DNA of 64,000 nt from Rhodovibrionaceae bacterium (lineage in GTDB: Bacteria > Pseudomonadota > Alphaproteobacteria > Kiloniellales > DSM-21159), in NCBI GenBank assembly GCA_028279885.1, contig JANQMX010000060.1, forward strand, positions 62,001 through 126,000, given 5' to 3'. Within the stretch, counting starts at the first letter, position 1; every line of letters begins with the position of its first letter. Both the position numbers and the translations under genes were made by a program. Below, piece by piece: positions 45,893 to 63,964 of the stretch. The notes under the pieces were generated by a model. That model was not told where the DNA came from. It did not search any database and worked only from the letters and a program-made list of their open reading frames with translations.

Positions 45893-46239
45893 ATGCTTGC
45901 TCTCCAGCTGTTGGGCCTTTGCCAAGGCCCGGCAAAACGGCGGGACATCCATCCAAGCTGATCGTACATGCACCGCTGTTCATGCTGCGCCGAACTGGTG
46001 CCGCTTAGGCGCGAGCAAGGACGGAGCACGCTTTGCAGCGTAGACGCTGCAAGCTCCTGAGCGCGCGGATTGCGCACCTCCTTCTGACCGATAGCTGTAA
46101 CTGAAACCAGTCAGAAGTTTCCCAGAGTCTTAACAATGCGAAGCGGCCCGAGGGGGGTAGGTTCGCCCGGCTGTTGCCGAGAACGAGCAGCTTTCTCGGC
46201 CGATCTTCCTGAAACCATTCTCAATTGGGGAGCTTTGAG
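45893..46239 (+). other. Gene-free stretch before the giant secreted protein
   Basis: 347 bases with no credible gene. A perfect hairpin, GGGCCTT-TGCC-AAGGCCC (45913-45930), 20 bases after the GntR stop, may end the upstream operon although no T-run follows. The right half must hold the promoter of the giant gene; CTGAAACCAGTCAG near 46102 is a small inverted repeat. GGGGAG at 46227 is its ribosome site. Confidence 0.5.
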
Positions 46240-49200: not shown

Positions 49201-52200
49201 ATCCGCGACAACCCGCGGGGCGTGAACGACGGCGAGGATGCCTGGCGGGAGTTCGCCTCGAAGTATCCGAACATCACCTTCACCTTCAACGGTCACAACT
49301 TCATGGGCGGCGCCGAGACCGTGGTGAGCTATGGCGCCGGCGGCAATCCGGTCCACCAGGTCTTCGTGAACTACCAGAACGGCGCTTGGGCCGGTGTCGA
49401 GGGTGTCGGCACCAACGGTGGCAACGGCGCGATGCGCTTGATGGTGATCGATCCGGACAACGACCGGGTGACGACCCACACCAAGCTTGTCGAGCTCGAC
49501 AGCTACTACGACGAATTCCCGGACCACCAGGAAGTCTTCGAAGGAGTCGACCTCGGTACGCCCGAGCAGATCGCCATTGCAAAGGCCGGCGAGACCATGA
49601 CGGTCACCGGCGACGGCATCTCGGCAACGGTCGAGCTCGACCCCTCCGCGACCATCGGCGATACGGCCGGTGCCACTTTCGAGTGGTTTGCAGCCGATGG
49701 CGAGAAGCTGGGCGAGACCGATGGCGGCGTGCTGTCGGTCGACCTCAAGACCGGAACAAACCGCCTGTTGTTGGAGGTCACCGACCAGAACGGCAATGTG
49801 TCGACCGACGAAAAGGTGGTGATCGTCGAGGCACCGGACGCGCTCTTGACCGAGACCTTCGACGACGGCGATTTGGCGGGATGGGGCTCGCCCGCGGGCG
49901 ACCCCGGCGATCTCTTCGACCTCGGCACCGATCTCGGCTTCTCGCTGCCGTCGATCGGCGGCGTGGCGCAGATCCCGATCACGCTGCAGTTCGACTCGAG
50001 CTTCCGGCCCTATGACGCCATGACCGGCGAGGTGATGGTCAGCTTTGACGGCGGCCAAAGCTTTTCGACGCTCTTGACGCTCGACACGAACACGGTCCCA
50101 GGCGGCACCAGCTCTCTCGACCGCGCGAACGAGGAGGTCACCCTCGAGGTCTTGGCCCCGAGCAGCGCCAGCGACATCCAGTTCGCCTGGCGTCTCAGCC
50201 AGGCCGACAATGATTGGTGGTGGGCGATCGACAACGTGGAGGTCACCACGGGCCTGCCGGACGTCGGACAGACGCTTCTCGTCGAGAACTTCGACGGCCT
50301 GCCGCTACAGGATGTCGTCGACGAGCCCGCACCGGATCCCAACCGCCCGGTCTGGACTCCGACACCGCCGGCCGACTGGACCCAAGATGTCGCGCCCACG
50401 ACCTCGCAGGGAACCACCGAGTGGCAAGGTTGGACCTTTGCCGACAAGGATTTCTGGATCTCGGTCGCGGGCAACCAGGCCCGCGACACCTTCGCGCTGG
50501 GCGAGAACACGGTCGCCATCGCCGACCCCGACGAGTGGGACGACAACAACGACGGCGCGGCTGGCGACACAGACGAGTTCGACAGCACCCTCAAGACTCC
50601 CGCAATCGACATCACCGGCATCGGCGGCGGTCAGCCGGCCGGGAGCGAGGCTGGCATCGTCAGGGTGGCGCCGCTCTCCGGTGTCGAGGGCCTGTTGGTG
50701 ACGCCGACGAGCTCCACCGGCGAGATCGACACATACACCTTGATCTTCGACATCCTTCTCACGGAAACGACCCAGAGCTTTACCTCGCTCTTCCAGACCG
50801 ACGTGACCAACGGGGGCGATGCCGAGATCTACCTGCGCAACGACGGCGCCACGGCCAGCATCGGCATCTCGGGCGACTATGACGGCGCACTGACCTACGG
50901 CGAATGGGGCCGGCTCGCGCTGGTCTTCGAGACCGACGAGAACGGCCAGCAGTCTCTCTCCAAGTACCTCGATGGCGTCTTCCTCGACAGCCAGATCGTG
51001 GACAGCGACGTCTCCGACGGCTCGCGCTGGACGATCGACGCAGATCAGGGCTTCCTGCTGTTCTCAGAGCCGAACGGTTTCACCTCGGAGATCTTCACGA
51101 ACGCGCTGCACTTCACGCCGGAGGCGCTGGATGCAGCGACCATCGCCGCGCTTGGCGGTGTCGATGTCGACGGGCCGGTGGATGCTGCCGCCAACCCGGA
51201 GGCTTTCCAGTTCAACTTCGATGGCGCGCTCGACAGCCTCGACTACGGCACTGCAGGTTTAGCGCCGGTCAGCCTGGCCGGACCGGACGCGACCTCCTAC
51301 CTGGTCAAGGGCTCCATCTTCGGCAATCCCAACGGCGAAGGCGAGGCGGCGCTCTATCAGCAGTCCAACGGCGCGAACGAGATCCTCGTGTGGCTCGGCG
51401 AAGGCGCAGAGAGCTGGAGCGACTACGTCTTCGACATGGTGGTGGAGCCCGCCGACAACGACACGATCGGTGCGGTGTTCTACTACCAGGATGACGAGAA
51501 CCACTATCGTCTGACCCTGGACCAGGAAAACGATACCCGGACGCTCTCGAAGTTCGAGGACGGTGTCGAAACGGTTCTCGCCACGGAGGCGGGGTCCTAT
51601 CGTCACTTCGCGGCGCAGGACCTGCGCATCGCGGTGCTGGGCAGCGAAATCGTCGTCACGCTGGACGACGAGCTCTTGTTCGATGGACCGGTGAGCGACG
51701 CAAGCCCGCTTGCCGGCGGCACCGTCGGGGTGCTGTCGCAACTGATGGACCGCGTGATCTTCGACAACATCTCGGTCAATCCGATCGACCTGGCGGCGCG
51801 CGCGCTGACGTCCGAGCCCTCCGGCCGCTGGGTCGCGGACCTTGACGGCGATGGGACCGCCACGGTGAACCTGACCGCGGCGGCCAGTCTCTCGGCCGCC
51901 GGCGTGGCGTCTTATGAGTGGCTGGTCGACGACGAAGTCAAGGCGACCGGCGAGGCGGCAGCGCTCACCCTGGCGCCGGGCGAGACCACGGTCACGCTGC
52001 GGGTCACCGATGCCAATGGCGCGACATCCGAGGACCAGATCACCGTCGCGGTCGCCGACAACCGCGCCATCCTGGCGTCGGACGACTTCGAGGACGGCAA
52101 TTTTGCCGGTTGGACCATCGTGGACGAAGGTACACAGGAAGGTCCCTCTGACTGGCAGGTCGTGGGGGGCGAGCTGGTGCAGGCCTCCGACATCCAGTCT

Positions 52201-53022
52201 GACCAGCAGGGCACCGGTAGCACGGCGTTCTCCGAAGGCGGCGACGGGCCCTTTATCCTGCGAGATGGCACATACGCTCTGTGGGACGACACGGCCGCTC
52301 TCGAATGGACCGACTACGCCTTCGAGGCAACGCTGACGCCGAACGACGACGGCGGGATCGGAGTGCTGTTCCGATACTCGGACCCAGACAACTACTACAA
52401 GCTCGAGGCGGATACGCAGACCGGACTGGTGATGCTCACCCGACACCTCGACGGCCGAGAGACCATCCTGGCCCGCGGCTACGACAACTATACCCCGGGC
52501 GAAGAGCAGCATTGGCGGGTTGAGGTCGAGGGCGGTGTCATCACCCCGTACATCGACGGCAAGAAAGTCTTCGGTACCGAGATCGAGGACCGGACCTTGG
52601 ACAGCGGTACAGTGGGTCTTTACGCCTGGGCCTCGGAAGATCTCGCCTTTGACGATGTGTTGGTGACCGAGCTTGGTGAAGCGTCAGGTGTCACCGAGAT
52701 CGTCGGCACCGACGGCAATGACCGCCTTGTCGGCACCGACGGTGACGACATTCTCAACTCCCTTGGCGGCCGCTCCGATGTCCTGACTGGCCTCGACGGC
52801 TCAGACATTTTCGACTTTTCGGACACGACCAGCAACGGCGTTCGCGAGGTCCGGCGCATTACCGACTACAACGAAGAGGAAGACAGCATCCTCCTCGGCC
52901 CGGACGTGGAGGTCGACCGCGTGCGGGAGACGGGCGTGGGGACGCTCCTGTACCTCGACGGCGACCAAGACCTCATCGTCCTGGAAGGTATCAGCGGCCT
53001 CTACAGCGATGGGTTCTTCTAG
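46240..53022 (+). CDS. Giant secreted calcineurin-like phosphoesterase with LamG-type repeats and RTX tail
   Basis: A 2260-residue protein without signal peptide, starting at ATG 46240 (GGGGAG 7 bases upstream). Order: LamG-like unit (~50-190); second LamG-like unit (~285-430); a block beginning FDSSFRPYD (~440-640); a metallophosphoesterase domain (~775-1090) with IPDTQDY, HVGDIV, AIGNHD, DTHSW and FNGHNF; an Ig-like stretch (~1100-1200); a second FDSSFRPYD block (~1250-1440); a third LamG-like unit (~1500-1650); two further concanavalin-like units (~1690-1850, ~2020-2150); and a short RTX tail (~2153-2190: GTDGNDRLVGTDGDD) plus C-terminal cap. The RTX tail and lack of a leader indicate type I secretion, and the matching exporter is coded 3.7 kb away. 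It probably hydrolyses phosphoesters outside the cell. Confidence 0.88.
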   Translation: MARNLNGATLGTADETGIPRIDGNDTSLFRFSAFAPDEALRLVPGTEAPEPISTWALGLDVYIERPSETFVSLFQTGEGDGDLFLRDNGDGTAGIGVSGVYDGAVAFDAWNRIVVTVTEEGGNAVLRTYVNGGPVGTQDLGVTDRWDIDPTLGLKLFNDDSGETAAGAVSSVFFSTDVPSPAEVAGLLATVPTADAAGFFPVQPTQSAVEINFDNQDVQPRYGTADVVLDGLGFQTPAVIGDSAIAFSTQFGIDGPGGADIAVLDYAGYTPSEGVLVELPLLSSDLSTYTAVWDIRFDELAGFQSLLQTDVSQGGDGELFIRSDGGIGINGDYDGAVSVDTWHRIAITVEDQNDGTAILSKYLDGAFLDSQTVSADRFTLSAETGFLLLSDNDRETSTGFLGHFGLSEEVLDALEIAALGGPDGDGPFEAVDPGGTRSLTLNFDSSFRPYDSQTGSVLVSLDGGAFTSLLTLDTLTVPGGSSALTRVDEAVSLNFEVPEATETVSFQFAYESADNDWWWAVDNVSLTENGSALFSEDFEGLPLGPFVSPGESGGDGTDWTNVAPDGWNRDNTTTPTGGVVEFEGWTFLDKNSWVATAGDQARAQFTLGEGIVAVADGDEYSDLGAIGSDSINVLLATPEIALPASGGDSPAVGDEGVPTYQIGFDNYEPTVEFGFGEVAVIDEDAEAPFQDNINDLLITEGGAPTEIDLAAAFGAGATNFSVTTSDGSLVDAEIDGTTLRLSGLDLGHSDITVTAQAENGAELVENFRAIVAGENAYVFAIIPDTQDYTSNPGIAETFGNMTDWLVEQKDSLAIQHAIHVGDIVQFGAEGQWEIAEDAMERLDGELSYTLAIGNHDQQRPGFSSAFSFETDVDTYFTPEQVGATAAQGGGTYDGFDVGEDTFQNGNTYADSIRNHYTTLTTPDGTDWLIFSLEFGMPDDVLRWASEVIEDHLDHRVIIDTHSWNGGDGRVTPTTEPLNTDNGGWGYAIRDNPRGVNDGEDAWREFASKYPNITFTFNGHNFMGGAETVVSYGAGGNPVHQVFVNYQNGAWAGVEGVGTNGGNGAMRLMVIDPDNDRVTTHTKLVELDSYYDEFPDHQEVFEGVDLGTPEQIAIAKAGETMTVTGDGISATVELDPSATIGDTAGATFEWFAADGEKLGETDGGVLSVDLKTGTNRLLLEVTDQNGNVSTDEKVVIVEAPDALLTETFDDGDLAGWGSPAGDPGDLFDLGTDLGFSLPSIGGVAQIPITLQFDSSFRPYDAMTGEVMVSFDGGQSFSTLLTLDTNTVPGGTSSLDRANEEVTLEVLAPSSASDIQFAWRLSQADNDWWWAIDNVEVTTGLPDVGQTLLVENFDGLPLQDVVDEPAPDPNRPVWTPTPPADWTQDVAPTTSQGTTEWQGWTFADKDFWISVAGNQARDTFALGENTVAIADPDEWDDNNDGAAGDTDEFDSTLKTPAIDITGIGGGQPAGSEAGIVRVAPLSGVEGLLVTPTSSTGEIDTYTLIFDILLTETTQSFTSLFQTDVTNGGDAEIYLRNDGATASIGISGDYDGALTYGEWGRLALVFETDENGQQSLSKYLDGVFLDSQIVDSDVSDGSRWTIDADQGFLLFSEPNGFTSEIFTNALHFTPEALDAATIAALGGVDVDGPVDAAANPEAFQFNFDGALDSLDYGTAGLAPVSLAGPDATSYLVKGSIFGNPNGEGEAALYQQSNGANEILVWLGEGAESWSDYVFDMVVEPADNDTIGAVFYYQDDENHYRLTLDQENDTRTLSKFEDGVETVLATEAGSYRHFAAQDLRIAVLGSEIVVTLDDELLFDGPVSDASPLAGGTVGVLSQLMDRVIFDNISVNPIDLAARALTSEPSGRWVADLDGDGTATVNLTAAASLSAAGVASYEWLVDDEVKATGEAAALTLAPGETTVTLRVTDANGATSEDQITVAVADNRAILASDDFEDGNFAGWTIVDEGTQEGPSDWQVVGGELVQASDIQSDQQGTGSTAFSEGGDGPFILRDGTYALWDDTAALEWTDYAFEATLTPNDDGGIGVLFRYSDPDNYYKLEADTQTGLVMLTRHLDGRETILARGYDNYTPGEEQHWRVEVEGGVITPYIDGKKVFGTEIEDRTLDSGTVGLYAWASEDLAFDDVLVTELGEASGVTEIVGTDGNDRLVGTDGDDILNSLGGRSDVLTGLDGSDIFDFSDTTSNGVREVRRITDYNEEEDSILLGPDVEVDRVRETGVGTLLYLDGDQDLIVLEGISGLYSDGFF
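47566..47588 (+). repeat. Copy A of the FDSSFRPYD coding repeat
   Basis: Start of a ~600-base internal duplication of the giant gene; the first ~20 bases are nearly identical to those at 49990. The two protein blocks (~440-640 and ~1250-1440) share FDSSFRPYD, TLDT, VPGG, ADNDWWWA(V/I)DNV and the GWTF-DK segment. Confidence 0.8.
49990..50012 (+). repeat. Copy B of the FDSSFRPYD coding repeat
   Basis: Second copy of the duplicated block, on the far side of the phosphoesterase domain, so that domain sits between two near-copies. Confidence 0.8.
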
Positions 53023-53640: not shown

Positions 53641-55200
53641 TCAGTCGTAGCCGAACGCCTTTATCATCGGCTCGAGCCGGTGCATGTGAGGCTCGAGGTG
53701 CTGGCGATAGTGCCGCCAGCGCCCGATCGAGTCTGTGTGTATGGGCCGGCGCACTTCGGAGTGCGTCGGTGAATTGACATGCTTGTCTATGATCTGGGTC
53801 CGATAATCCCGAATGCGCTCGTCCCAGGACAAACCGACGGCTTCGAGGGAACGACGGGCTTGCTGCTCGAAGTCGGCGACCACGTCTTCGTAGCGCACCT
53901 CAACCCAGGTATCGGCGTCGAGTAGATCGCGATACCGCAGCCACGTCTCCATTTCGAAGCGATACATCTCACAGGCCGTCTCCCAACTGAGCAGCATGGC
54001 ACTCGTTTCCGTGAGACGAAACATGCGGAGAACGCAGCTGACGATCACGTCCCGTGGATCACGCTGGGCAACGATGAAGCGGGACTCTCCGAAGAGGCGC
54101 AGCAAGCCGGGCAGCAAGGAGGTGTGGTTCGGGTTCTTGTCTAGGTGGACGCGGCCGGACAAAGGTTCTCCAAGCGCGGCTTCCATGTAGTCGATGTACC
54201 GCGTTCTTTCCCGTGCAATCGTGTCGCGGGGGATGGCGTTCAGCGTTTCGACCGTGAGCGCGCCACCGCCGGCCTTGCACAAGCGGGGAAAGATATCTCG
54301 GCTGAAGACAACCCGTTCGGGAGAAGCGACCAGACCGGGGTGGGCGTCGAGGGATCGTTCCAGCAAGGTGGTCCCGGAGCGTGGAAAGCCGATGAGGTGC
54401 GCGATGCCGGAGCAGCGAGGGCCGGGCTCGAATGCCGCGCTGCGCCAAGACTCGATGCTTCGGCGAGTTAGTCGCTCCGACAGCCGACCGAGTGCGGCGT
54501 TGTTCGCCCGGGCTCTTGCGATGAGCTGTCTGGTAAGGGGAAGGCCAAGGACGAGGGTATGCGCCTGTCCGATGGCTTGCGCCGCAGCTTCGTAGTCGCC
54601 CTCGGCATCTCGAATGTAGCAAAGCTCTGCCCAGGCTTCGGCTTGGATGCGGACATCAAGATCGTCTTTTGCCAGTGAAGAGAAGATCGTTTCGGCATCT
54701 TGCAGTTGACCCTTTCGTCGCAAAATGCGCCCACACACAAGCTTGGGCTCCGGCGCACTGGGGGCATCGCGAATACAGGCTTCGATGGCGGCGAGAGCAT
54801 CTTCGAGCCGCCCGGATTGCTCATAGAGCACAGCCAATTCGGCCCGGATGGCTGGCGGGACTTGTTCTTGCTTCTCCAGCAGTTCGATCGCGCGCTGCTG
54901 GCGGAAGATCCGAGCGTAGCTTTGGGCGATCACCGGGGACACGCGACGGTCATCGCCCCCCAGGCGACTGGCCTTTTCTAGCAATGTCTCGGCACGCGCA
55001 ATCTCGTGCCGACCGCCGAATGCGCGCGCGGCCTCAAGAATGGCGCGAAGGTTCCCCGGCCGTTCACGGAGCGCCATGTCGAAGGCATCGAGCGCCGAGT
55101 CGAGTTCGTGCTTGGCCCAAAGCGCGCGCGCCTTGTGGAGCGTGCTGAAATCCGACAGCTGCTCGGCAGAAACAGTCATCCACAGGCCATCCCGAGCCAT
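53641..55200 (-). CDS. TPR-repeat sulfotransferase family protein
   Basis: A 519-residue protein: TPR-like helical repeats over about 15-245 (HELDSALDAFDMALRERPGN, AVLYEQSGRLEDALAAIEAC, ILRRKGQLQDAETIF), then a sulfotransferase domain with the PAPS 5'-phosphosulfate loop IGFPRSGTTLLE (270-281) and a 3'-phosphate motif near FIVAQRDPRDVIVSCVLRMF. These TPR-sulfotransferases may sulfate proteins, glycans or lipids. ATG 55200 has GAGG directly upstream; ATG 55179 is an alternative. It stands between the giant RTX protein and the type I exporter but is not an obvious part of either. Confidence 0.85.
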   Translation of the reverse strand: MARDGLWMTVSAEQLSDFSTLHKARALWAKHELDSALDAFDMALRERPGNLRAILEAARAFGGRHEIARAETLLEKASRLGGDDRRVSPVIAQSYARIFRQQRAIELLEKQEQVPPAIRAELAVLYEQSGRLEDALAAIEACIRDAPSAPEPKLVCGRILRRKGQLQDAETIFSSLAKDDLDVRIQAEAWAELCYIRDAEGDYEAAAQAIGQAHTLVLGLPLTRQLIARARANNAALGRLSERLTRRSIESWRSAAFEPGPRCSGIAHLIGFPRSGTTLLERSLDAHPGLVASPERVVFSRDIFPRLCKAGGGALTVETLNAIPRDTIARERTRYIDYMEAALGEPLSGRVHLDKNPNHTSLLPGLLRLFGESRFIVAQRDPRDVIVSCVLRMFRLTETSAMLLSWETACEMYRFEMETWLRYRDLLDADTWVEVRYEDVVADFEQQARRSLEAVGLSWDERIRDYRTQIIDKHVNSPTHSEVRRPIHTDSIGRWRHYRQHLEPHMHRLEPMIKAFGYD

Positions 55201-55382: not shown

Positions 55383-56735
55383 TTATTGTTCGCGCAGGCT
55401 GCGCTCGAGGGTCTCGCGCAAGGGCTGGAGCAGATAGTCCAGCAGCGTCCGATCTCCGGTGGTGATGAAGACCTCCGCCGGCAGGCCCGGCGTCAACTCG
55501 ACTTCTGGAGCCACGCTGTTGAGGCGCTCGCGATCGACCTCGACCTTGGCCAGGTAGTAGAGCGTACCGGAGCGTTCATCCTCCAGCGCGTCCGCCGAGA
55601 CATGCGTGACTCGCCCATTGATGCGCATCAGGTGGCGCTGTGGGTAGGAGGGAAAGACGACATAGGCCGACAAGCCGATACGGACGTCGTCGATGTCATG
55701 GGGCGAGACATGGGCGTCGATGATCAGCTTGTCTTCCGCCGGCACGATGTCGAGCACCGCTTCGCCGGGGGCGATGACGCCGCCGGTCGTCTTGTGTCTC
55801 AAATTGATGACCGTGCCGTCCACTGGGGCGACGATCTCCGTACGATCGACGCGGTCGAGACTCTCCTTGAGCCTCTCCTCGACCTCGAGGCGCTCGGCCC
55901 GAACGGCCGAGAGTTCCGAGGCGACCTCTTCAAGCCGCTCGGTTGTGATGTTGAGGATGGCGAGTTCGGTCTCTGCGATCGCCTCCTGAGAACGGGCGAT
56001 GTTGGCGACGAGTTCGCCTTCGGTGCCGACCAGTTCCGCTTCGGCGCGCTGGAGCGCTAGGAGGCGCGGCTTGCGCTCGTAGCCGCGGCGAACGAGCCGT
56101 TCGACCATCGTGATCTCCTCACGGATCAAGGCCGCCTGCCGCCGTGTTCCGGCGAGCTGTCGCTGCGCCCCGGCGATCTGCTTGTCGAGCTGGGCACTGC
56201 GCTTCTTGAGGATCGCCCGACGGCTCTCGTCGTTGGCCGCGCGGGTCGCGAATTCGTCCCGCTGCTGCGCAAGGATCGCCCGGACCTCCGAGTCCGCGGT
56301 GTTCTTCAGCGCAGGGTGGGAAAAGGCGATGGCCGCGGTGCCGCTGCGCTCTGCATCCAGCCGCTGTTCCTGCGCGGCCAGCGTTCTGAGGCGGTTGGTT
56401 AGAGCATCCGCTTCGACCTTGGCGGCGACCCCTTCCAGAATGACCAGCCTGTCGCCGGCGAGGACCGTATCGCCTTCGCGAACCACGATCTGGCGAATAA
56501 TCCCGCCTTCGAGATGCTGCACGGTTTGGCGGCTTCCTTCAGGGCTCACCACGCCCGTGGCGATGGCGGCGCCGGACAGCGGGGCCGTTGCGGACCAACC
56601 GCCGCCAACGACAAAGAACAGAACGATGACCGAGACGCCGACCCAGAAGCTCGCTTTGAGCTCTTTTCTGAGCGGCCGCACCGGGCGGGGCGAAGGGGGA
56701 CCCAGTACCGCTTCGACGATATCCTTGCTGCTCAT
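55383..56735 (-). CDS. Type I secretion membrane fusion protein (HlyD family)
   Basis: A 450-residue adaptor. One N-terminal membrane helix (about 32-52), a lipoyl/barrel half (GIVSPEGS-like VVSPEGSRQTVQHLEGGIIRQIVVREGD), a long coiled-coil hairpin (about 110-290) and the second half (APVDGTVINLRHKTTGGVIAPGEAVLDIVPAED) with the family end LLDYLLQPLRETLERSLREQ. The true start is ATG 56735, overlapping the exporter stop by 4 bases; the longer open frame is shadow. With the ABC protein and a TolC-like channel (not in this window) it should export RTX proteins. Confidence 0.92.
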   Translation of the reverse strand: MSSKDIVEAVLGPPSPRPVRPLRKELKASFWVGVSVIVLFFVVGGGWSATAPLSGAAIATGVVSPEGSRQTVQHLEGGIIRQIVVREGDTVLAGDRLVILEGVAAKVEADALTNRLRTLAAQEQRLDAERSGTAAIAFSHPALKNTADSEVRAILAQQRDEFATRAANDESRRAILKKRSAQLDKQIAGAQRQLAGTRRQAALIREEITMVERLVRRGYERKPRLLALQRAEAELVGTEGELVANIARSQEAIAETELAILNITTERLEEVASELSAVRAERLEVEERLKESLDRVDRTEIVAPVDGTVINLRHKTTGGVIAPGEAVLDIVPAEDKLIIDAHVSPHDIDDVRIGLSAYVVFPSYPQRHLMRINGRVTHVSADALEDERSGTLYYLAKVEVDRERLNSVAPEVELTPGLPAEVFITTGDRTLLDYLLQPLRETLERSLREQ

Positions 56736-58546
56736 GACTGGCCTCCACTGGAGCCGGCTCCTGACTGCCCAGACGATGGTAGAGCTCCTCCGCGAGACGC
56801 ATCGGGCTTGAGCGAAGCCGGGGCGCCCTTGCCTCCCTGGGCAACCCGCAAGGGCCTGAGGTTGGCGAAGACCTCTTCCCGCAGGCCGAAGGCTTCCATC
56901 CGGCCCTCGCGTAGAAGCAGCACCTTGTCGACGGGCGCAAGAAGGCGCGGCTGATGGGTGACGACGACGACCGTCGCGCCCCAATCCTTGGCTTCTTGCA
57001 TGGCTGTGATCAGGGCCTGCTCGCCTTCGCTGTCCAGGCCGGCGTTGGGCTCGTCGAGGATAATCAGGCGCGGCTTGCCGTAAAAGGCTCGCGCCAAGGC
57101 AATCCTCTGGCGCTGTCCGCCGGAGAGAAAGGCGCCGTACTCGCCGATTTCCGTTTCGTAACCCTCCGGCAGTCGCAGAACGAGCTCGTGCACACCGGCC
57201 GTCTTGGCGGCTTCGACGACCGCGCCGGCATCGTAGCGGGGGCTCAAGCGCGCGATGTTGTCGCGCACACTTCCGGCAAAGAGCTCGACGTTCTGCGGCA
57301 GATAGCCGACGTGCCGCCCCAGTTCCTCTGAAGGCCAGTGAAAAACATCTGCGCCGTCGAGGCGGGCGTGGCCTCTTGTGGGTTGCCAGATGCCAACGGC
57401 GATCTTGCATAAGCTCGACTTGCCGGCGGCCGAGGGACCGATCACCGCCAGCGCTTCACCCGGCTCGATGACGAAGGAGATCCCTTGCAGAACCATCTGG
57501 TCGCGGTTTTTCGGCACGAAGAAGACGTTCTCAAGGGTGAGACGACCTTGAGGCGCCGGGAGCTGCATGCGCGGTGGCCGTGGTGGCGCGCTGTCCAGAA
57601 GCAGGCGCAGCCTTCCGTAAGCGTCGCGCGCGGCGATGAGACTCTTCCAGCCGCCGATCAGATGCTCGACCGGCGCCAACGCGCGGCCGAGCAGAATCGA
57701 GGCCGCAATCATGCCGCCCGGCGTCAGCTCGGCCTGTAGCACGAGGTAGGCGCCGGTGCCCAAAATCGCGATCTGAACGAACAGCCGGAAGAACTTCGAG
57801 AAGCCGACCAGGGCCGCGTTTCGGTCGCTGGCTTGGACCTGAAGGTCGAGTGCCTCTCCGTGGCGGCCGCACCAGGACGCGAGAAATCCTGGCAGCATGC
57901 CCATGGCATGGAAGACATCTGCATTGCGAATGGCGATGTCGGCCCGGCGCGTCGTAGCGATGGCCAGCTTGTTGGACTCTGTCAGCAGCACGCGGGAGAC
58001 ATGCTCGTTCAGCAGCGCGGTGGCGAAGAGAATGATCGCCGCGATCGTGGCGATGGTGCCCAGCAAGGGATGCAGCAGCCAGATCACGGCGAGGAAGACC
58101 GGCACCCAGGGGGCATCGAGCACCGCGCCAACCCCGGGTCCGCTTAGCACGCCGCGAATGGTGGAAAGGTCGCGCAGCGGCTGCGCACCGGCGAGCAGGC
58201 CGGAGGCTGCGCCGCGCATGCTGGCCTCGATGAACTCCGGCGCCAGCCTGCGTTCGAACCAGCCGCCGACCCGCGCCAGCACCCGAGCGCGTACCGCTTC
58301 GAGCACGCCCATGATCAAGACGGCAACCCCGGCAATCAGAGTCAGAACGAGGAGGGTTTCGACGCGCCCACTTGCCAGGACCCGGTCGAAGGTCTGCATC
58401 ATATAGATGGGCGATGTCAGGATCAGTAGATTTATGGAGAAGCTGAAAAGGCAGAGCATCGGCACGGCGGCACGGCATTGCCGAAGCGCCGCTCTCAGCG
58501 GCAGCCCGGCGTCGTCACGCACTTTCGTCTCATCGACCTTGCGCAT
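56732..58546 (-). CDS. Type I secretion ABC transporter (PrtD-type)
   Basis: A 604-residue half-transporter: six-helix membrane domain (about 30-290), ATPase with Walker A GPSAAGKSS (370-378), signature LSGGQRQRIALARAF (474-488) and Walker B LIILDEPNAG. No C39 peptidase domain is present, so it is the PrtD/AprD class that exports leaderless RTX substrates. The ~35-residue C-terminal extension is Gly/Ser/Pro-rich. GAAGGA lies upstream of ATG 58546. Likely cargoes are the RTX proteins at 46240-53022 and 59747-61375. Confidence 0.93.
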   Translation of the reverse strand: MRKVDETKVRDDAGLPLRAALRQCRAAVPMLCLFSFSINLLILTSPIYMMQTFDRVLASGRVETLLVLTLIAGVAVLIMGVLEAVRARVLARVGGWFERRLAPEFIEASMRGAASGLLAGAQPLRDLSTIRGVLSGPGVGAVLDAPWVPVFLAVIWLLHPLLGTIATIAAIILFATALLNEHVSRVLLTESNKLAIATTRRADIAIRNADVFHAMGMLPGFLASWCGRHGEALDLQVQASDRNAALVGFSKFFRLFVQIAILGTGAYLVLQAELTPGGMIAASILLGRALAPVEHLIGGWKSLIAARDAYGRLRLLLDSAPPRPPRMQLPAPQGRLTLENVFFVPKNRDQMVLQGISFVIEPGEALAVIGPSAAGKSSLCKIAVGIWQPTRGHARLDGADVFHWPSEELGRHVGYLPQNVELFAGSVRDNIARLSPRYDAGAVVEAAKTAGVHELVLRLPEGYETEIGEYGAFLSGGQRQRIALARAFYGKPRLIILDEPNAGLDSEGEQALITAMQEAKDWGATVVVVTHQPRLLAPVDKVLLLREGRMEAFGLREEVFANLRPLRVAQGGKGAPASLKPDASRGGALPSSGQSGAGSSGGQS

Positions 58547-58728: not shown

Positions 58729-59100
58729 TCAATTGGTGCTACCGGCGAAGTCATCCGTTGCCGCCAAGGACTCGGAGAACGCGAAAGCGCCGAACTCGTC
58801 CACCTGGGCGAAGGTATCGGTCTCGGCCAGAGCATCGAAACCGAGCGCGTCGGCGGAGGCTTCAGCCGTCGCCAGGCGACCATCGATGTTGACGTTGGCA
58901 TCGACGTCCTTGTCGACGTCGAGGAAAACGAACTTCTCAATGTTGACGTTCTTCAAAATGATGGTGTCGAACTCCACCATGCCGGCAGCGGTCACCTTAT
59001 CGAGCGCCGTCTCGCTCAAGACGATGGGTTCGTCGGCGTTTGCGGCGCCCGCCATGGCGAGCAGGCCGACACCGGCCAAGAGTGCAAGGGTTCTTTTCAT
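58729..59100 (-). CDS. Small Sec-exported protein with LDxVTAxG motif, copy 1
   Basis: A 123-residue protein with a Sec signal (about 1-27, ending ANA|DE) followed by PIVLSETALDKVTAAG, then an acidic repeat-poor region with FLDVDKDVDANVNIDGRL and a C-terminal segment FAFSESLAATDDF. ATG 59100 follows GGAGGATGAG. It is clearly a duplicate of the next upstream gene; LATAEASADALGFDAL and the following residues are identical. The conserved LDxVTAxG resembles the end of a double-glycine leader (LxxVxGG-like), but here it follows a Sec signal. I do not know a named family; function unknown. Confidence 0.75.
   Translation of the reverse strand: MKRTLALLAGVGLLAMAGAANADEPIVLSETALDKVTAAGMVEFDTIILKNVNIEKFVFLDVDKDVDANVNIDGRLATAEASADALGFDALAETDTFAQVDEFGAFAFSESLAATDDFAGSTN
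58761..58960 (-). repeat. Tandem duplication, copy 1 (coding)
   Basis: About 200 bases coding the C-terminal half of copy 1, closely matching 59195-59394 with a 434-base offset. Many exact runs are shared, such as CTCGTCCACCTGGGC. Confidence 0.85.
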
Positions 59101-59174
59101 CTCATCCTCCTTCAAAGCCGCAGGGGCAAAGCAGATAGTCCGAGGGACTGTCGCTCTTAGCCTCGGCGCCCCGA

Positions 59175-59534
59175 TTAGAAGTTGTTGTCCACGGCCGCCA
59201 AGGACTCGGAGAACGCAAAAGCACCGGTCTCGTCCACCTGGGCAAAGGTGTCGGTCTCAGCCAGGGCATCGAAACCAAGCGCATCAGCGGAGGCTTCCGC
59301 AGTCGCTAGCCGGCCATCGATGTCGACGAAGGCTTCGACGTCCTTGTCGACGTCGAGAAAGACGACCTTGTTGATGTTGACGGTCTTGAAGATGTCGGTG
59401 TCGAAGTCCACGGTACCGGCCGCGGTTACGCTGTCGAGCGCTGCCTCGCCCAGAACCACAGGTTCATCCGCACTCGCGACGCCGGAAAGAGCAAGCAGGG
59501 ATGCACCGGCAAGAAGTGAGAGCATCTTAGACAT
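59175..59534 (-). CDS. Small Sec-exported protein with LDxVTAxG motif, copy 2
   Basis: A 119-residue paralogue of the neighbour: Sec signal (about 1-22, ending ASA|DE), PVVLGEAALDSVTAAG, FLDVDKDVEAFVDIDGRL and FAFSESLAAVDNNF. AGGAGGG is 6 bases before ATG 59534; the longer open frame 5' has no ribosome site. It lies 74 bases upstream of copy 1 and is probably cotranscribed, with the terminator at 58621-58650 ending both. As with copy 1, the mature part is acidic and has a DxDxD-like stretch that could bind calcium. Function unknown. Confidence 0.78.
   Translation of the reverse strand: MSKMLSLLAGASLLALSGVASADEPVVLGEAALDSVTAAGTVDFDTDIFKTVNINKVVFLDVDKDVEAFVDIDGRLATAEASADALGFDALAETDTFAQVDETGAFAFSESLAAVDNNF
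59195..59394 (-). repeat. Tandem duplication, copy 2 (coding)
   Basis: The second copy of the block at 58761-58960. Differences are mostly at codon third positions, so both copies appear to be under selection at protein level. Confidence 0.85.
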
Positions 59535-59746
59535 TGTAATCCCTCCTATATGAATTCGCAGGTCGGTTCCTGGTGCAGGACAAGCCTGGTCGGAACGCCC
59601 TCCCGCCGAGCTATGGTCCGCCAAGCCGGCTCCCTTGCTCAATTTGAAGATAAGTGTGATCCACTTTTGGTATCTCCTTGGGCCCTCTCGGTTACGCCTT
59701 TAGATGCCATGGGTGGGCTGGTTCGCCGCTGCGGCATGCCCGCGTC

Positions 59747-61375
59747 TCAGACGAGGGGGGCGCCACCGTCGAAAATGAAGATGCTGTCGTTCACGATTGG
59801 AGGGTCGACGTCCACCAGGATCGTGGTGAAGAACTCGAGAAGCGGATCGTCGTCGACATCCCAGGCAACGAGAAAGTCTGGCTGCGTGGCGTTGCCTGCT
59901 CCACTGCCGAGCGGGAAGATCCTGGCCATGCTGAAGTCCACGCCGAGGGCGCTGACGTCGAGCTTGTCGATCCCGCCACCGTCAAAGCCCGTAACGATGT
60001 CGGTCGTCTCGAAAAGGAAGGACACATCGACCATGCGGTCGGTGTAGACCACCACGTCCGGGTCGCCGTCGTGCTCGAGATTGATGGTATCCGGATCGGC
60101 CCCGCCGGTGATCGTGTCGCTGCCTCCGCCTGGGTCGATGAAGTCGGCCCCGGCCCCGGTATTGATGTCATCGTTACCGTCAGAGAAGAAGGAGGTGTAG
60201 ATGGTATCGGAGCCCGACAGGGTTCTTACGGTATTGTTGCCGCCGGCATCGATCACCTCGTTGTCGCCGCCGCCGAGATCGATGATGTCATCACCGAGAA
60301 CCCCAGGGACAAAGTTGATAACCCTGGCTCCCGGCAGGAGGTCTGCATCGTCAAGCGTGATCGAAACGTCGGACAGGACCAGGTCGTCCCCCTGATCGCT
60401 CGCTGATGCCGTCGATCGAATGTTGTCGTTGCCGCCCCGGTCAACGACGTAGTTGTGTGCCTCGAAGCCGAAGCCTTCCAGACCGAGCAGGGGCAACAAC
60501 GCGAAGGTCTCGGAGTCGGCGCCGTCGAGAACGCCGTTGAAGTTGGAGTCCTCGCCGAGATCGAGAACGCCGTTGCCGTTGGCATCCTCGTCCTTGAAGC
60601 CGCCGCGCACCTCGACGAAGTCGTCGCCCGTGCCGACAACGAACTCATCATAGTTGTCGCCGCCGCGCACTATGTTGTTGCCATTGCCGGCATCGATGAT
60701 GTTGCGTCCGTCGAAGGCGTTGATATTGTCGTTGCCGTCCCCCGTGTTGACGATGTCGGTTCCAACGAACGGAGACGCAAAGCTGGTCGTCGCCAGCAAG
60801 GTGATGGTGTTGTTGCCGCCGAGATCGGTGATGATATTGTTGCCGCCGGTGTCGGTGACCCGGTCGTTTCCCAGACCAAGGTAGATCCTGTCGTCGCCGT
60901 CGCCGGTATTGACCCGGTTGTTGCCTTCCAGATCGATGATCGTGTCGTTGCCGCCGCGGCCAAAGATCCGGTCGTTGCCGTCGAACTCGGTGTCGATGCC
61001 GAAGAAGGCTGCATTGATCAGAACAGAGTTGAGTGTTTCGAGCGGTGTGTCCCAGAAATCGACTCCTCGATCGAGATCGTCCAGGGCATCCTCCAGGGCT
61101 GTCAGTGTCTCAATCAAATCCACTTGATCGACGGACAGGGGGAAGCCGAGGAAATCCAAGACCAGCGCAGCGTTGGCAGGAGTATTGTCCAGTCCAAATT
61201 TGAACGGGATTCCGACCACGCTAGCGACGACCGTTAGATCGATCTCGACTTGCGTGAAGCCCTCTTGGCGAAATCCAATTGCCTCGTCGGCACCGCTTCC
61301 CCGCAGAAAGTCGCCACGGCTCGAGTAGGGGCCCGAGCTGCTTGCCGATGACCGTGAGCTTGTGAACCTCGGCAT
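59747..61375 (-). CDS. RTX-like calcium-binding repeat protein
   Basis: A 542-residue protein without signal peptide. Repeats of GGNDxI/GGNNxI type (GGNDTIIDLEGNN, GDGDDRIYLGLGNDRV, GGNNIITDLGGNN, GNGNNIVRGGDNYDEFVVG) run from about 130-265 and again about 360-440 (DDIIDLGGGDNEVIDAGGNN, GGGSDTITGGADPDT). Many repeats have GGNN in place of GGND, a variant form. An EF-hand-like DEDANGNGVLDLGED lies between. ATG 61375 follows GGACAGGG. RTX repeats bind calcium outside the cell, and the exporter is coded 1.2 kb downstream on the same strand. No catalytic domain is recognised, so it may be structural or adhesive. Confidence 0.82.
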   Translation of the reverse strand: MPRFTSSRSSASSSGPYSSRGDFLRGSGADEAIGFRQEGFTQVEIDLTVVASVVGIPFKFGLDNTPANAALVLDFLGFPLSVDQVDLIETLTALEDALDDLDRGVDFWDTPLETLNSVLINAAFFGIDTEFDGNDRIFGRGGNDTIIDLEGNNRVNTGDGDDRIYLGLGNDRVTDTGGNNIITDLGGNNTITLLATTSFASPFVGTDIVNTGDGNDNINAFDGRNIIDAGNGNNIVRGGDNYDEFVVGTGDDFVEVRGGFKDEDANGNGVLDLGEDSNFNGVLDGADSETFALLPLLGLEGFGFEAHNYVVDRGGNDNIRSTASASDQGDDLVLSDVSITLDDADLLPGARVINFVPGVLGDDIIDLGGGDNEVIDAGGNNTVRTLSGSDTIYTSFFSDGNDDINTGAGADFIDPGGGSDTITGGADPDTINLEHDGDPDVVVYTDRMVDVSFLFETTDIVTGFDGGGIDKLDVSALGVDFSMARIFPLGSGAGNATQPDFLVAWDVDDDPLLEFFTTILVDVDPPIVNDSIFIFDGGAPLV

Positions 61376-61436
61376 ATCCCTGTCCTTTCCAGACTAGTCC
61401 GCCGCGCCTATCCCGAGCATGCCTTCATCGCTTGTC

Positions 61437-62426
61437 TCAGGGCGCATTGACGGTGACGATCGTTGTTGAAGAGTGCGTCCGTGCGATCGGTGGCGCGCTG
61501 TCGGTCGCGTCGATCAGACGGCTCATGGTGTTCGAGATCGTGATGACGATGTTGCCTGTCCCGGTCGCTCCCGTGATCGCCGCGCTCTCTTGCGAGACAG
61601 AACCGATGGCGATCGCCGTGCCGGAGATATGACCGCGGTCGACGGAGCGGCTTTCGTAGATCCGTCCCGTGACGACGGTCGCCACGGCAGGGTCACCGGT
61701 GGCGGTGGCCTCGGCCAGACCGACGATCGACAGGTTGCTCTCTCCGTCATTCAGCGACAGCAGCGCGGCCGCGGACCCTAGCGCTGCGTCGTCGGCTGAG
61801 GTGTGCGCGGCGATGTCGGCGGCAAGCGCCTCGGCATCGAGCTGTCCCAAGGTCTGTGCCAATGATATGCCGCCGCCGGTCGACAGGCCGTCAGCGGCCG
61901 CTGCGACTTCGAGGTCGTTTCCGGCAGCGCTGGTCGTGAGCAGCATGCCAGAAGACGTAAAGGACTCGTCCCCCGAGGATAGCGCGGTGCCTTCCGCGGC
62001 GACGCGCTCCTGCGTCATTGAGACGCTTGCCGCCGTCTCCGCCTGCGTAACGACGCTGCCGCCTCCAAGGCTCTCAGCCCCAAGCATGACGGCCTGAATG
62101 TCGGCGCCGTTCGCGGCGATCAGGTCTGTGAAGGCAATGCTCGCGGCGTCCAACTGGCCGACCGCAAGGGCCACGGCTTGGCCTTCGAGATCGGCGTGAG
62201 CTGCGCCGTTGTCGACCGAGGCCTCGGTCAAGGTTAGAGCTAGGGCCGCATCACCCGAGGCTATTGCCAGCGCACCACTCTCGGAGAAGGTGATGATCCC
62301 ACCGGCTGTCACGGTGTCGAGTTGACGGGCGGTAAGTGGAATGGGCTCGTCGGCCAGCGCACCTCCGGCCAGTAGCAGCCCAACTGCCGCTACAAGTCCT
62401 GCTGTATGTGCCGTTGCACCCCGCAT
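61437..62426 (-). CDS. Larger Sec-exported protein with LDxVTAGG motif
   Basis: A 329-residue protein with a Sec signal (about 1-25, ending ALA|DE), then PIPLTARQLDTVTAGG, the same motif and spacing as in the two small paralogues. The mature part is long, Ala/Ser/Thr/Gly-rich and low in charge, with loose repeats such as LAIASGDAALALTLTEAS and AALGSAAALLSLNDGESNL, and looks fibrous or beta-helical. GGAAAGGCGG precedes ATG 62426. The RTX gene starts 61 bases after its stop, so both are probably in one transcript. Function unknown; a surface or matrix protein is plausible. Confidence 0.75.
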   Translation of the reverse strand: MRGATAHTAGLVAAVGLLLAGGALADEPIPLTARQLDTVTAGGIITFSESGALAIASGDAALALTLTEASVDNGAAHADLEGQAVALAVGQLDAASIAFTDLIAANGADIQAVMLGAESLGGGSVVTQAETAASVSMTQERVAAEGTALSSGDESFTSSGMLLTTSAAGNDLEVAAAADGLSTGGGISLAQTLGQLDAEALAADIAAHTSADDAALGSAAALLSLNDGESNLSIVGLAEATATGDPAVATVVTGRIYESRSVDRGHISGTAIAIGSVSQESAAITGATGTGNIVITISNTMSRLIDATDSAPPIARTHSSTTIVTVNAP

Positions 62427-62622
62427 CGCAGTTCCGCCTTTCCATCAGCGGCGCCTGCGCTTTGTTCGCTGTGATCCACGCAGCCTGGCCCGCTGAAATT
62501 GGCTTAAGCTGTCTCTTAGCGTATCTCTTAGGGTGCTCTATGCATGACACGTCACAGTGGGTGTTGAGAAGCTCATCAATGGAAGTACGCCCATCGATGG
62601 CCTGCCGTGCAGCGCCAGCTCT

Positions 62623-62940
62623 CTAGCGGGGAGGGGATATCGAGCGGCTGCTTGTGCGCGAGGAAGCGCTGGACCTGGCGCCTCTTTCAATCGAGACCGT
62701 CACCGCGACGGACGCGCTCTCCCCGGTGGCGCGGGCGCGTGCCGAGGAGCGGGGTTTCCTTTGCCCCAGCGTGACATGCTCCTCAGCCTGGCCGTGGGCT
62801 TGGCGCGACGTCGATAGAGTCTCAGACTTCCCCAAGCCCGGCGGAGCTTCATCGGCCAAGACCTGCGCGATCACCGCGGTCGTTGCGATGATCGCGGCGC
62901 CAAGCAGAGCGCAAGCGATGAGCTGGCTTCTGTGTGCCAT
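62623..62940 (-). CDS. Small exported protein, unknown
   Basis: A 105-residue protein: ATG 62940 with AGGAA upstream, a signal-like helix (LIACALLGAAIIATTAVIAQVLA) followed by ADEAPPGLGK, and a polar Ser/Arg-rich tail (SSARARATGESASV, ISPPR). The ADE after the predicted cleavage site matches the three LDxVTAxG proteins nearby, but the motif itself is absent. The basic tail may be partly out of frame with the original gene; a frameshift is possible. Confidence 0.5.
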   Translation of the reverse strand: MAHRSQLIACALLGAAIIATTAVIAQVLADEAPPGLGKSETLSTSRQAHGQAEEHVTLGQRKPRSSARARATGESASVAVTVSIERGARSSASSRTSSRSISPPR

Positions 62941-63163
62941 GGCGTTTCCTGAATGGATCGAGCACCGTTCAACGCGCACTCTTGCAGATGAATCGATGCG
63001 CGCGTACCTCGCCTTTCGGAGAGGGCGTTCCTTCAGGCAGCTTGGCGCATCGCCTGCCCGGCTGGCTACAGCTTGAGCCGAGTCTTTAGCGACCTCTCTC
63101 TCTATCGGCCGCCAATCTAACGACAATGTCGCTCGCGGACGCGCCCGTGCCTTGAGTGATCCT

Positions 63164-63964
63164 TCACTGGCTCTTGGTTGAGCCGACCAACCTCATGGCA
63201 TAGAGGGCCGCTTGTGTTCTGTTGGTCGCCTTTAGCTTCTTCATAATCTGCCGGATGTGCACCTTCACGGTGCTCTCCTGCATGTTCAGCTCATAGGCTA
63301 TGACCTTGTTTGGGTCTCCGCGGCACAGATGGGCCAAGACTTGCTGCTGTCTTGGGGTAAAGTTGGGCGCATCGTCATCCTCTGCCGCGTCGTAGCCTGC
63401 GGGTGCAAGGTCTTCGAGATGAAGCTCGCCCGGCAGCGACGAGACTTGCTCCAGTGCATCGACCAGCGCGCCGGCCGGCAGAAAGATGCCGCCCGCACGA
63501 ACCAGGCGCAGAGCTTCCTTCACCACGGTCGCGGTCAAGGTTGTGGGGATGTAGCCGTTGACTCCTTGTTGTGCAGCCTGGGTTACTTGGCTGCCGTTGG
63601 TCCGATCGCCCAAAATGATGATGGGGCAGTCGCGGAAATTGTGCTTGAGCAAAAGAATACTCTCCCGCACCGGCTTATCGCCGATCGACTGAGCGGCGAT
63701 GTTCAGAACGACCAACTTGACGTCGGCGGCCATGTCGCCGCGCAGGCTCAGCAGATCTTCTGGCCCGGACAGCGGCACGACGACATAGTCTCTGGTTGCC
63801 GAACGAAAGAGCTGAGAGAACGACTCCCTGGTGAGGGGTCGTGGATCGAGCAATGCCAAGATGGGACGCTGGCTCGGTTCGGGCTTTTCAATATCCGCGA
63901 TTGGCCGAATTGCCGCGACCTTGTGCTCACCGGTTTGCTCTTCTGGTATCGCGTTGGAGATCAT
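63164..63964 (-). CDS. LuxR-family regulator with pseudo-receiver domain
   Basis: A 266-residue regulator: an N-terminal REC-like domain (~34-155) and a LuxR/FixJ HTH (~200-262: NFTPRQQQVLAHLCRGDPNK, ESTVKVHIRQIMKKL). The phospho-acceptor position is Asn88 (LVVLNIAAQ), and the conserved Lys at the end of strand 5 is Thr141 (YIPTTLTA), so normal phosphorylation is unlikely. This recalls VpsT/CsgD-type regulators of extracellular matrix genes. GGGGAGATACG precedes ATG 63964. It is upstream on the same strand as the LDxVTAxG/RTX genes and is their best candidate regulator. Confidence 0.85.
   Translation of the reverse strand: MISNAIPEEQTGEHKVAAIRPIADIEKPEPSQRPILALLDPRPLTRESFSQLFRSATRDYVVVPLSGPEDLLSLRGDMAADVKLVVLNIAAQSIGDKPVRESILLLKHNFRDCPIIILGDRTNGSQVTQAAQQGVNGYIPTTLTATVVKEALRLVRAGGIFLPAGALVDALEQVSSLPGELHLEDLAPAGYDAAEDDDAPNFTPRQQQVLAHLCRGDPNKVIAYELNMQESTVKVHIRQIMKKLKATNRTQAALYAMRLVGSTKSQ

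Follow-up and report, generated by a model that had tools for sequence, protein, structure and literature searches.

A stretch of 64,000 nucleotides from the alphaproteobacterium Rhodovibrionaceae bacterium (contig JANQMX010000060.1, positions 62,001 to 126,000), hereafter called the window, carries close to its end three neighbouring genes for exported proteins. In each of these proteins, a Sec signal ending in A-DE is directly followed by a short shared segment, the tag, of the form DEP-x-x-L-x4-LD-x-VTA-[AG]-G. The key partners of these genes, a C39 peptidase and an outer-membrane protein resembling FapF, are encoded on the same strand, 0.3-2.2 kb past the window end. From comparison of sequences, we consider it probable that the island made up by these genes is an export system of the Fap or Fil kind, in which the tag would be a second, double-glycine-like leader placed after the Sec signal and cut in the periplasm by the C39 peptidase. 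Similar tags recur beside such peptidases in many Proteobacteria, and the dialect of the tag follows the peptidase tree. No description of the tag turned up in searches of open-licence papers in PubMed Central.

The tagged proteins and their neighbouring peptidase

The tag occupies residues 23-40 in proteins 1 and 2 (P0001 and P0002) and residues 26-43 in protein 3 (P0003; Table 1). The cargo behind it is 84, 80, and 287 residues long, respectively, each time with a pI of 4.05 and without cysteine. Proteins 1 and 2 are 77% identical across residues 1-117. With protein 3, BLASTP aligns protein 1 over 23 residues around the tag (13/23 identical, E 2e-5), the other three alignments of this pair having E values of 2.8 or worse. 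An earlier reading of the window, made from the sequence only, had described three neighbouring genes with this signal and tag, and unlike cargo behind them; on both points our data agree with it. None of the three proteins has a Pfam or an NCBIfam match up to E 1 and, for P0001 and P0003, NCBIfam gives none up to E 10. Among 59 genomes of the order, a full-length match to protein 3 exists in the window genome alone; the other match of that search, in genome G050 (E 0.0015), is a tagged protein of the first kind.

The shared segment might be an inherited family sequence having no role in processing and put on new cargo by recombination. Two of the three tagged proteins are indeed close paralogues, and protein 3 could have captured the 5' end of a neighbour. 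We give very little credence to this explanation, since the same kind of segment is present on other cargo beside C39 genes in many genomes and since its dialect follows the peptidase (see below).

The tag was compared with the consensus and spacing of classical double-glycine leaders, requiring a hydrophobic residue at -12, L or M at -7, a hydrophobic residue at -4, and small residues at -2 and -1. The spacing L-12, L-7, V-4, A-2, and A or G at -1 is present in 7/7 aligned tagged proteins of the islands and in P0003. Behind the tag of the first kind of protein comes a module in which, within columns 40-74 of ten sequences, all 17 invariant columns are even-numbered and none is odd. This alternation would suit a beta or amyloid-like fold. 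Double-glycine leaders being a typical trait of bacteriocins, the C39 peptidase could also mature the tagged proteins into peptides of bacteriocin or signalling type, and not into parts of a surface matrix. This is very unlikely, given the length (80-287 residues), acidity, and lack of cysteine of the parts behind the tag, the strict alternation, which would suit a beta fibre, and the FapF-like protein and FapE link, which both point to a matrix.

A search of the window's own genome found a further relative of the tagged proteins past the window end, so that the adjoining stretch was taken in (L007, corresponding to G000:C17:125000-144000, with the window ending at C17:126000). The C39 peptidase encoded there matches the Pfam C39 model (E 2.4e-13). 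Among NCBIfam models, it is closest to FilB (E 1.6e-30, 106 bits, below the cut-off of 475), and it also matches FapD (NF058616, E 2.2e-23, 82.7 bits, below the cut-off of 330). The catalytic residues Q57, C63, H152, and D168 are invariant in 14/14 aligned peptidases, and one solved relative was found (6mpz, E 2.7e-5). This stand-alone peptidase is the one C39 match of the genome at thresholds of E 1e-10 and 1e-12. The adjoining FapF-like protein matches Phenol_MetA_deg above cut-off (E 6.6e-9), solved FapF (5o67, phmmer E 3.3e-5), and, below the cut-off of 700, the NCBIfam FapF model (NF058560, E 4.4e-12, 45.5 bits). FapF itself combines a coiled coil in the periplasm with a barrel of 12 strands.

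The island is conserved. Relatives of the peptidase in genomes G050 and G045 (75 and 79% identity) sit in the same island, made up there of HlyD, ABC, three or two tagged proteins, RTX, small Sec protein, LuxR, FapF-like, C39, transposase-type helix-turn-helix (HTH), Sec-less paralogue of the tagged module, second RTX. A scan of 84,980 species with the tagged family returned two loci, in Rhodospirillales bacterium BBD 1991-14 and Pelagibius litoralis DSM 21314; it used the peptide patterns ALAETDTF and GAFAFSES, which reach close relatives only. In all three known islands, the tagged family is found together with the C39 peptidase and the FapF-like protein.

The Sec-less paralogue, present in all three islands, consists of the same module without signal or tag and starts M-GQV-x-F. 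Its glycine aligns with G40 of the tagged proteins, directly after VTA[AG], and the cut is therefore predicted between residue 39 and G40. In Pelagibius litoralis, a von Willebrand A-like stretch (by eye) comes after the complete module of this paralogue (L028:7032-7964, minus).

The following route is proposed. Sec would carry the tagged protein into the periplasm, where signal peptidase would cut at A-DE. The next 17 residues would act as a double-glycine-like leader, recognized by the Sec-exported C39 peptidase, which would cut before G40 or its equivalent. The cargo may then exit through the FapF-like outer-membrane protein, whose gene adjoins that of the peptidase, to form what is probably a beta-rich, amyloid-like layer on the surface. 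To the sequence-only reading, the tag had looked like a motif for recognition or maturation, with an ending like that of a double-glycine leader, and a surface-fibre type of system had been proposed. Both ideas gain support from the C39 and FapF-like genes next door and from the wide recurrence of this arrangement.

Recurrence of the tag beside C39 peptidases

Seventy-nine proteobacterial C39 loci were compared, namely the 3 islands, 16 others from the order, 40 from a phylum sample, and 20 from a class sample. The phylum sample comprised 398 genomes, 55 of them with a C39 match at 1e-8, from which short-frame places were taken; five of the 48 places with frames up to 380 residues were omitted (G230:C24, G266:C1:967099, G238:C26, G100:C27, and G347:C130). 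The class sample comprised 385 genomes, 22 of them with a C39 match at 1e-30. C39 places in frames of more than 700 residues (transporter type) were left out, and in two of the 79 loci the C39 match lies inside a stop-to-stop frame of more than 450 residues. A FapF-like protein is encoded within 6 kb of the C39 gene in 77/79 loci, one of these matches being a marginal fragment and the model having been built from 7 of the 79 loci; the same model finds none in 20 control regions and none in the window.

A tag matrix of 13 columns was built from 27 tags in loci that had already been read, and a score of at least 11 was taken as threshold, the C39 genes being located by HMM. Controls (n=220) were open reading frames (ORFs) with a Sec signal lying more than 4 kb from C39, in 20 random regions, or elsewhere in the window; these ORFs were called with a crude Sec finder. 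In the previously unseen class loci, 15/65 near Sec ORFs reach the threshold vs. 2/220 controls (p 5.5e-9), and 15 of the 19 loci with a near Sec ORF are tagged (20 loci taken). Peptidases were also clustered at 60% identity, and clusters wholly outside the training set were held out. There, 31/124 near Sec ORFs score vs. 2/220 controls (p 3e-13) and 17/19 clusters have a tag, as do 31/37 across all clusters. The 20 class loci were new, while held-out order and phylum loci had already shown matches to an earlier regular expression, their tags not being in the training set. Per locus, 56/79 pass the matrix, or 57 with the window's own tags, and looser scans made after the fact add 15.

The earlier regular expression had matched 37/198 near vs. 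6/93 far Sec ORFs, with the island's own tags accounting for three of these six, in a run that left out 9/59 loci whose C39 gene had escaped a quick finder; on unread loci it gave 19/111 near vs. 2/44 (p 0.03).

The sequence-only reading would have been at fault if the motif were scattered in unrelated contexts. The DNA pattern for [LM]DxVTA[AG][AG] occurs at 48 places in 45 of the 385 class genomes, all of which were inspected, and a backward-pattern control gave 19 matches in 18 genomes. The only convincing proteins with Sec signal and tag among these are two neighbours in genome G772, 495 and 868 bases from a C39 match, an outcome opposite to such scattering. The window's own tags escape the pattern owing to their codon choice. 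Candidates L211, L219, L229, and L232, which had passed a crude Sec filter, are membrane or non-secreted frames by eye, and a pattern match on contig C47 of the window genome appears to be the end of a LysR-like frame.

Kinship with Fap and Fil, and the dialects of the tag

As in the Fap system of Pseudomonas (FapA-F), the island has an apparently Sec-exported C39 peptidase and a FapF-like protein, and FapE carries a double-glycine-like segment of its own. In contrast, the island peptidase, though homologous to FapD, and the FapF-like protein stay below the curated cut-offs, no Fap model matches the tagged proteins (in particular, none for the amyloid subunits FapB and FapC up to E 1 in NCBIfam), the tag is of the VTAxG dialect, and a type I exporter, RTX proteins, and a LuxR gene are added. 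In the Fil “putative pilus” (FilA/DUF6160, FilB, FilC), FilB is the closest NCBIfam relative of the island peptidase, but the latter is below its cut-off and the tagged proteins have no DUF6160 match. The island would thus work like Fap or Fil, yet it misses strict membership in either. Double-glycine leaders processed by C39-containing ABC exporters (PCAT, microcin type) are alike in leader spacing and in C39 catalytic residues, whereas in the island a Sec signal precedes the leader, the peptidase is a separate, Sec-exported protein, and the ABC exporter is devoid of a C39 domain.

Passages of PMC5557850 report that the FapD active site is essential, that its mutation abolishes FapC secretion, and that among Fap proteins FapE alone is fully processed at its N terminus; the target of FapD is called unclear there (2017). 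A section of a 2018 review (PMC6173800) likewise gives the FapD substrate as still to be determined, and Fap proteins have been described as lacking canonical C39 sequences. On the other hand, according to a statement in PMC10638192, FapC is modified by FapD, in conflict with PMC5557850.

A canonical fap locus of our survey (L078) has FapD and FapA above cut-offs and a FapE match of 8e-104 (NF058559). Its FapE bears a double-glycine-like segment, LKDQELATLRGRY, at residues 39-51 of the called frame; the matrix score of 28.7 is circular, as this segment belonged to the training set. The FapE segments of L079-L082 and L084, outside the training set, matched the earlier regular expression. Two other FapA-like proteins have matrix scores of 0.8 and 8.3. 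Proteins of FapA type (L083:9440-9892, minus, and L078:9662-10099, minus) have an internal VT-like segment about 75 residues in, LSDSDFAGVTSG in L083, with low scores. On the Fil side, FilA/DUF6160 proteins beside FilB-like peptidases carry MDDAALSGVTGQ or LDDSALADVTGQ directly after the Sec signal.

In canonical fap loci, the FapE tag has GR or GK at its end instead of GG. This ending would fit a tag that is not cut at all and serves as a docking signal, either for the coiled coil of the FapF-like protein or for the peptidase acting as a chaperone; a passage of PMC5557850 mentions inactive C39-like domains that are substrate chaperones in some type I systems. We regard docking as rather unlikely, since the four catalytic residues are kept throughout the aligned peptidases, since FapC secretion depends on an intact FapD active site (PMC5557850, in the passage quoted above), and since the Sec-less paralogue begins at the predicted cut in three genomes.

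With cleavage by the C39 peptidase as the preferred reading, the form of the tag can be compared with peptidase phylogeny. Loci were labelled by the analyst as VT (LDxV[TVAS][AG]G) or RG (ELxxxRGG). On a first C39 tree, the label changes once, compared with a shuffled mean of 11 (0/500 as low); on a careful tree of 77 rows it again changes once (shuffled mean 14.2, 0/500 as low), although near-copies inflate this shuffle test. The C39 peptidases of the FilA/DUF6160 loci fall in the same clade as the island peptidase. An unlabelled locus, L192, fell inside the VT clade, and five Sec-type proteins with VT tags were then found in it (LDGTALDGVVAG, LGPAQLDEIVAG, LTADQLDEVSGG, LDLAALDRVVAG, and LGDADLDAVTAG), three of them within 0.5 kb of the C39 gene and two at 4-5 kb. 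The tag of L196 is LNAEQMDSVAAG. A strict VT form, written after the tags of L192 and L196 had been seen, gives 20 matches in 11/16 VT loci (with three tagged proteins in L191 and four in L193), vs. a single match among 63 other C39 loci and two among 21 control stretches; the island tags are beyond its reach, being more than 5 kb away or outside the locus. Finally, genome G151 carries both dialects with two peptidases (RG at L084, VT at L115).

Odd or absent tags are seen at the C39 loci L198, L117, and L184. L198 has LSDAEMSEIVARG, and its dialect label is unsure because of this odd tag and of its long-branch peptidase. Besides the island, G050 (at L044) and G045 (at L041) have a second C39/FapF-like locus. 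L044 carries an RG-type tag, and both L044 and L042 (genome G057) have PrtD and HlyD matches nearby.

Several observations weigh against the proposed maturation by C39. A matrix made without VT-type tags fails on the window's tag, with -0.4 for P0001 and P0002 and 6.8 for P0003, a value equalled by 8/220 controls; what ties the dialects together is thus their spacing, their place, and the kinship of the peptidases rather than the score. A matrix made from island tags only gives a weak signal, 6/296 near vs. 0/220 at scores 10 or 12 (p 0.035); at scores 4, 6, 8, and 14, its result lacks significance. Support for the VT clade is moderate (88/73, and 88% of bootstrap trees), and long branches meet there. 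The loose pattern behind the finds in L192 and L196 also matches 31/63 other C39 loci and 7/21 control stretches. Seven of the 79 loci have no credible tag in any scan (L087, L103, L106, L111, L117, L184, and L189). In L078, only FapE is clearly tagged, the scores of FapA, FapB, FapC, and FapF ranging from -2.8 to 2.1, and the N-terminal gap of FapE given in a passage of PMC5557850 is about 70 residues, longer than the leader. In the window genome, about 3.2 kb separate the C39 gene from tagged gene 3, and 6.0-6.5 kb separate it from genes 2 and 1. As for structures, a model of a tagged protein (A6) is of low confidence (pLDDT 52), and that of the Pelagibius FapF-like protein (A5, from two rows only, pLDDT 34, low confidence) predicts a long helix and no barrel.

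All in all, we lean slightly towards a wider claim, from which the interest of the island derives. Proteobacteria would use a general two-step code, a Sec signal and behind it a double-glycine-like leader, and its readers would be C39 peptidases of the periplasm that are coupled to FapF-like pores. At least two dialects would co-evolve with the peptidase clades, one genome (G151) having both; FapE would be the substrate of FapD; and the beta module of the island would be exported in two ways, by Sec, C39, and FapF-like protein or by the type I route, the second form starting at the cut of the first. Two leaders in tandem may explain the export of a whole class of bacterial surface fibres. A definable tag behind the Sec signal, beside dozens of C39 peptidases and changing in step with them, makes the question of the FapD substrate directly testable. 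The tag may also be a sequence handle for finding unknown matrix proteins whose mature parts have no homology.

The type I exporter and other neighbouring genes

As in PrtD/HlyD type I secretion of RTX proteins, the island has exporter, adaptor, and RTX genes (Table 1). The sequence-only reading had noticed an RTX protein, a type I exporter, and a LuxR-family regulator with a pseudo-receiver. All three are present, the receiver domain being a sub-threshold match to PF00072 (14.4 bits vs. a cut-off of 30.2) that reads by eye as degenerate. It had also placed the exporter genes within 58729-63964; they actually lie outside, at about 55383-58546. The exporter and this LuxR type are not supported as general partners of the tag. 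Within the stretches taken, PrtD is found within 8 kb of C39 in 6/79 loci and this LuxR in 8/79, the window's own PrtD lying outside its locus and being uncounted.

Since PrtD and HlyD genes lie directly downstream of the tagged genes and the tag resembles double-glycine leaders, the tag could be a leader for the type I exporter, a possibility hinted at in the sequence-only reading, and be processed by the ABC protein itself. This appears extremely improbable: the Pfam matches of the PrtD-type protein above cut-off are ABC_tran, ABC_membrane, and AAA_21 only, without C39 domain, the tagged proteins carry Sec signals, and PrtD is rare near C39 loci. Instead, the probable substrates of the exporter are the RTX proteins together with the Sec-less paralogue of the tagged module. 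The first RTX protein is a likely type I substrate. The C termini of the Sec-less paralogues (FIA, TIA, or LIA) and of the second RTX proteins (DFEF[LIV]) look like type I signals.

Table 1. Features of the island in the window and in the adjoining stretch L007.
Feature	Position	Strand	Remarks
Tagged protein 1 (P0001, 123 aa)	58729..59100	-	residues 1-22 Sec signal, 23-39 predicted leader, and 40-123 acidic module, as delimited by eye
Tag of protein 1, LSETALDKVTAAG	58981..59019	-	positions -12 to +1 around the predicted second cleavage
Tagged protein 2 (P0002, 119 aa)	59175..59534	-	paralogue of protein 1
Tag of protein 2, LGEAALDSVTAAG	59415..59453	-	
Tagged protein 3 (P0003, 329 aa)	61437..62426	-	signal and tag of the kind seen in proteins 1 and 2; cargo long and unrelated
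Tag of protein 3, LTARQLDTVTAGG	62298..62336	-	
FapF-like outer-membrane protein	L007:1328-2581	minus	0.3 kb past the window end
C39 peptidase	L007:2578-3246	minus	four-base overlap with the FapF-like gene; apparent Sec signal, by eye
Sec-less paralogue of the tagged module	L007:4163-5065	plus	
Second RTX protein	L007:5314-6999	plus	
HlyD-type periplasmic adaptor	55383..56720	-	TIGR01843, E 9.7e-114, 381 bits (cut-off 209); start codon unsettled, open frame to 57410
PrtD-type ABC permease/ATPase	56732..58546	-	TIGR01842, E 3e-208, 693 bits (cut-off 510)
RTX protein (542 aa)	59747..61375	-	PF00353, E 2.6e-12; counterparts in both sister islands (L027, L028)
Small Sec-type exported protein without tag	62623..62940	-	tag score -1.7
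LuxR-family regulator	63164..63964	-	counterparts in both sister islands

To judge by eye, each sister island has a counterpart of the small exported protein without tag at the corresponding place (L027:6557-6913 and L028:12534-12923). In all three islands, it has a similar serine/alanine-rich end and a V-x-V-T-V stretch (by eye). Between the C39 gene and the Sec-less paralogue, all three islands have a transposase OrfA-like gene (L007:3400-3831, plus; L027:10660-11091, plus; L028:8413-8778, minus), which matches HTH_Tnp_1 in L007 and looks alike by eye in L027 and L028. No partner transposase gene was seen beside it in the ORF lists of the islands, and it is possibly a domesticated regulator. 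Downstream of the island, exported proteins with a PEP-CTERM-like end are encoded at L007:11574-12730 (plus), with similar N termini up to 14593 (by eye). On the other side, a gene for a TPR and sulfotransferase protein (53641-55200, minus) adjoins the HlyD gene, and the longest open frame of the window, of 2265 residues, extends over 46225-53022 (plus).

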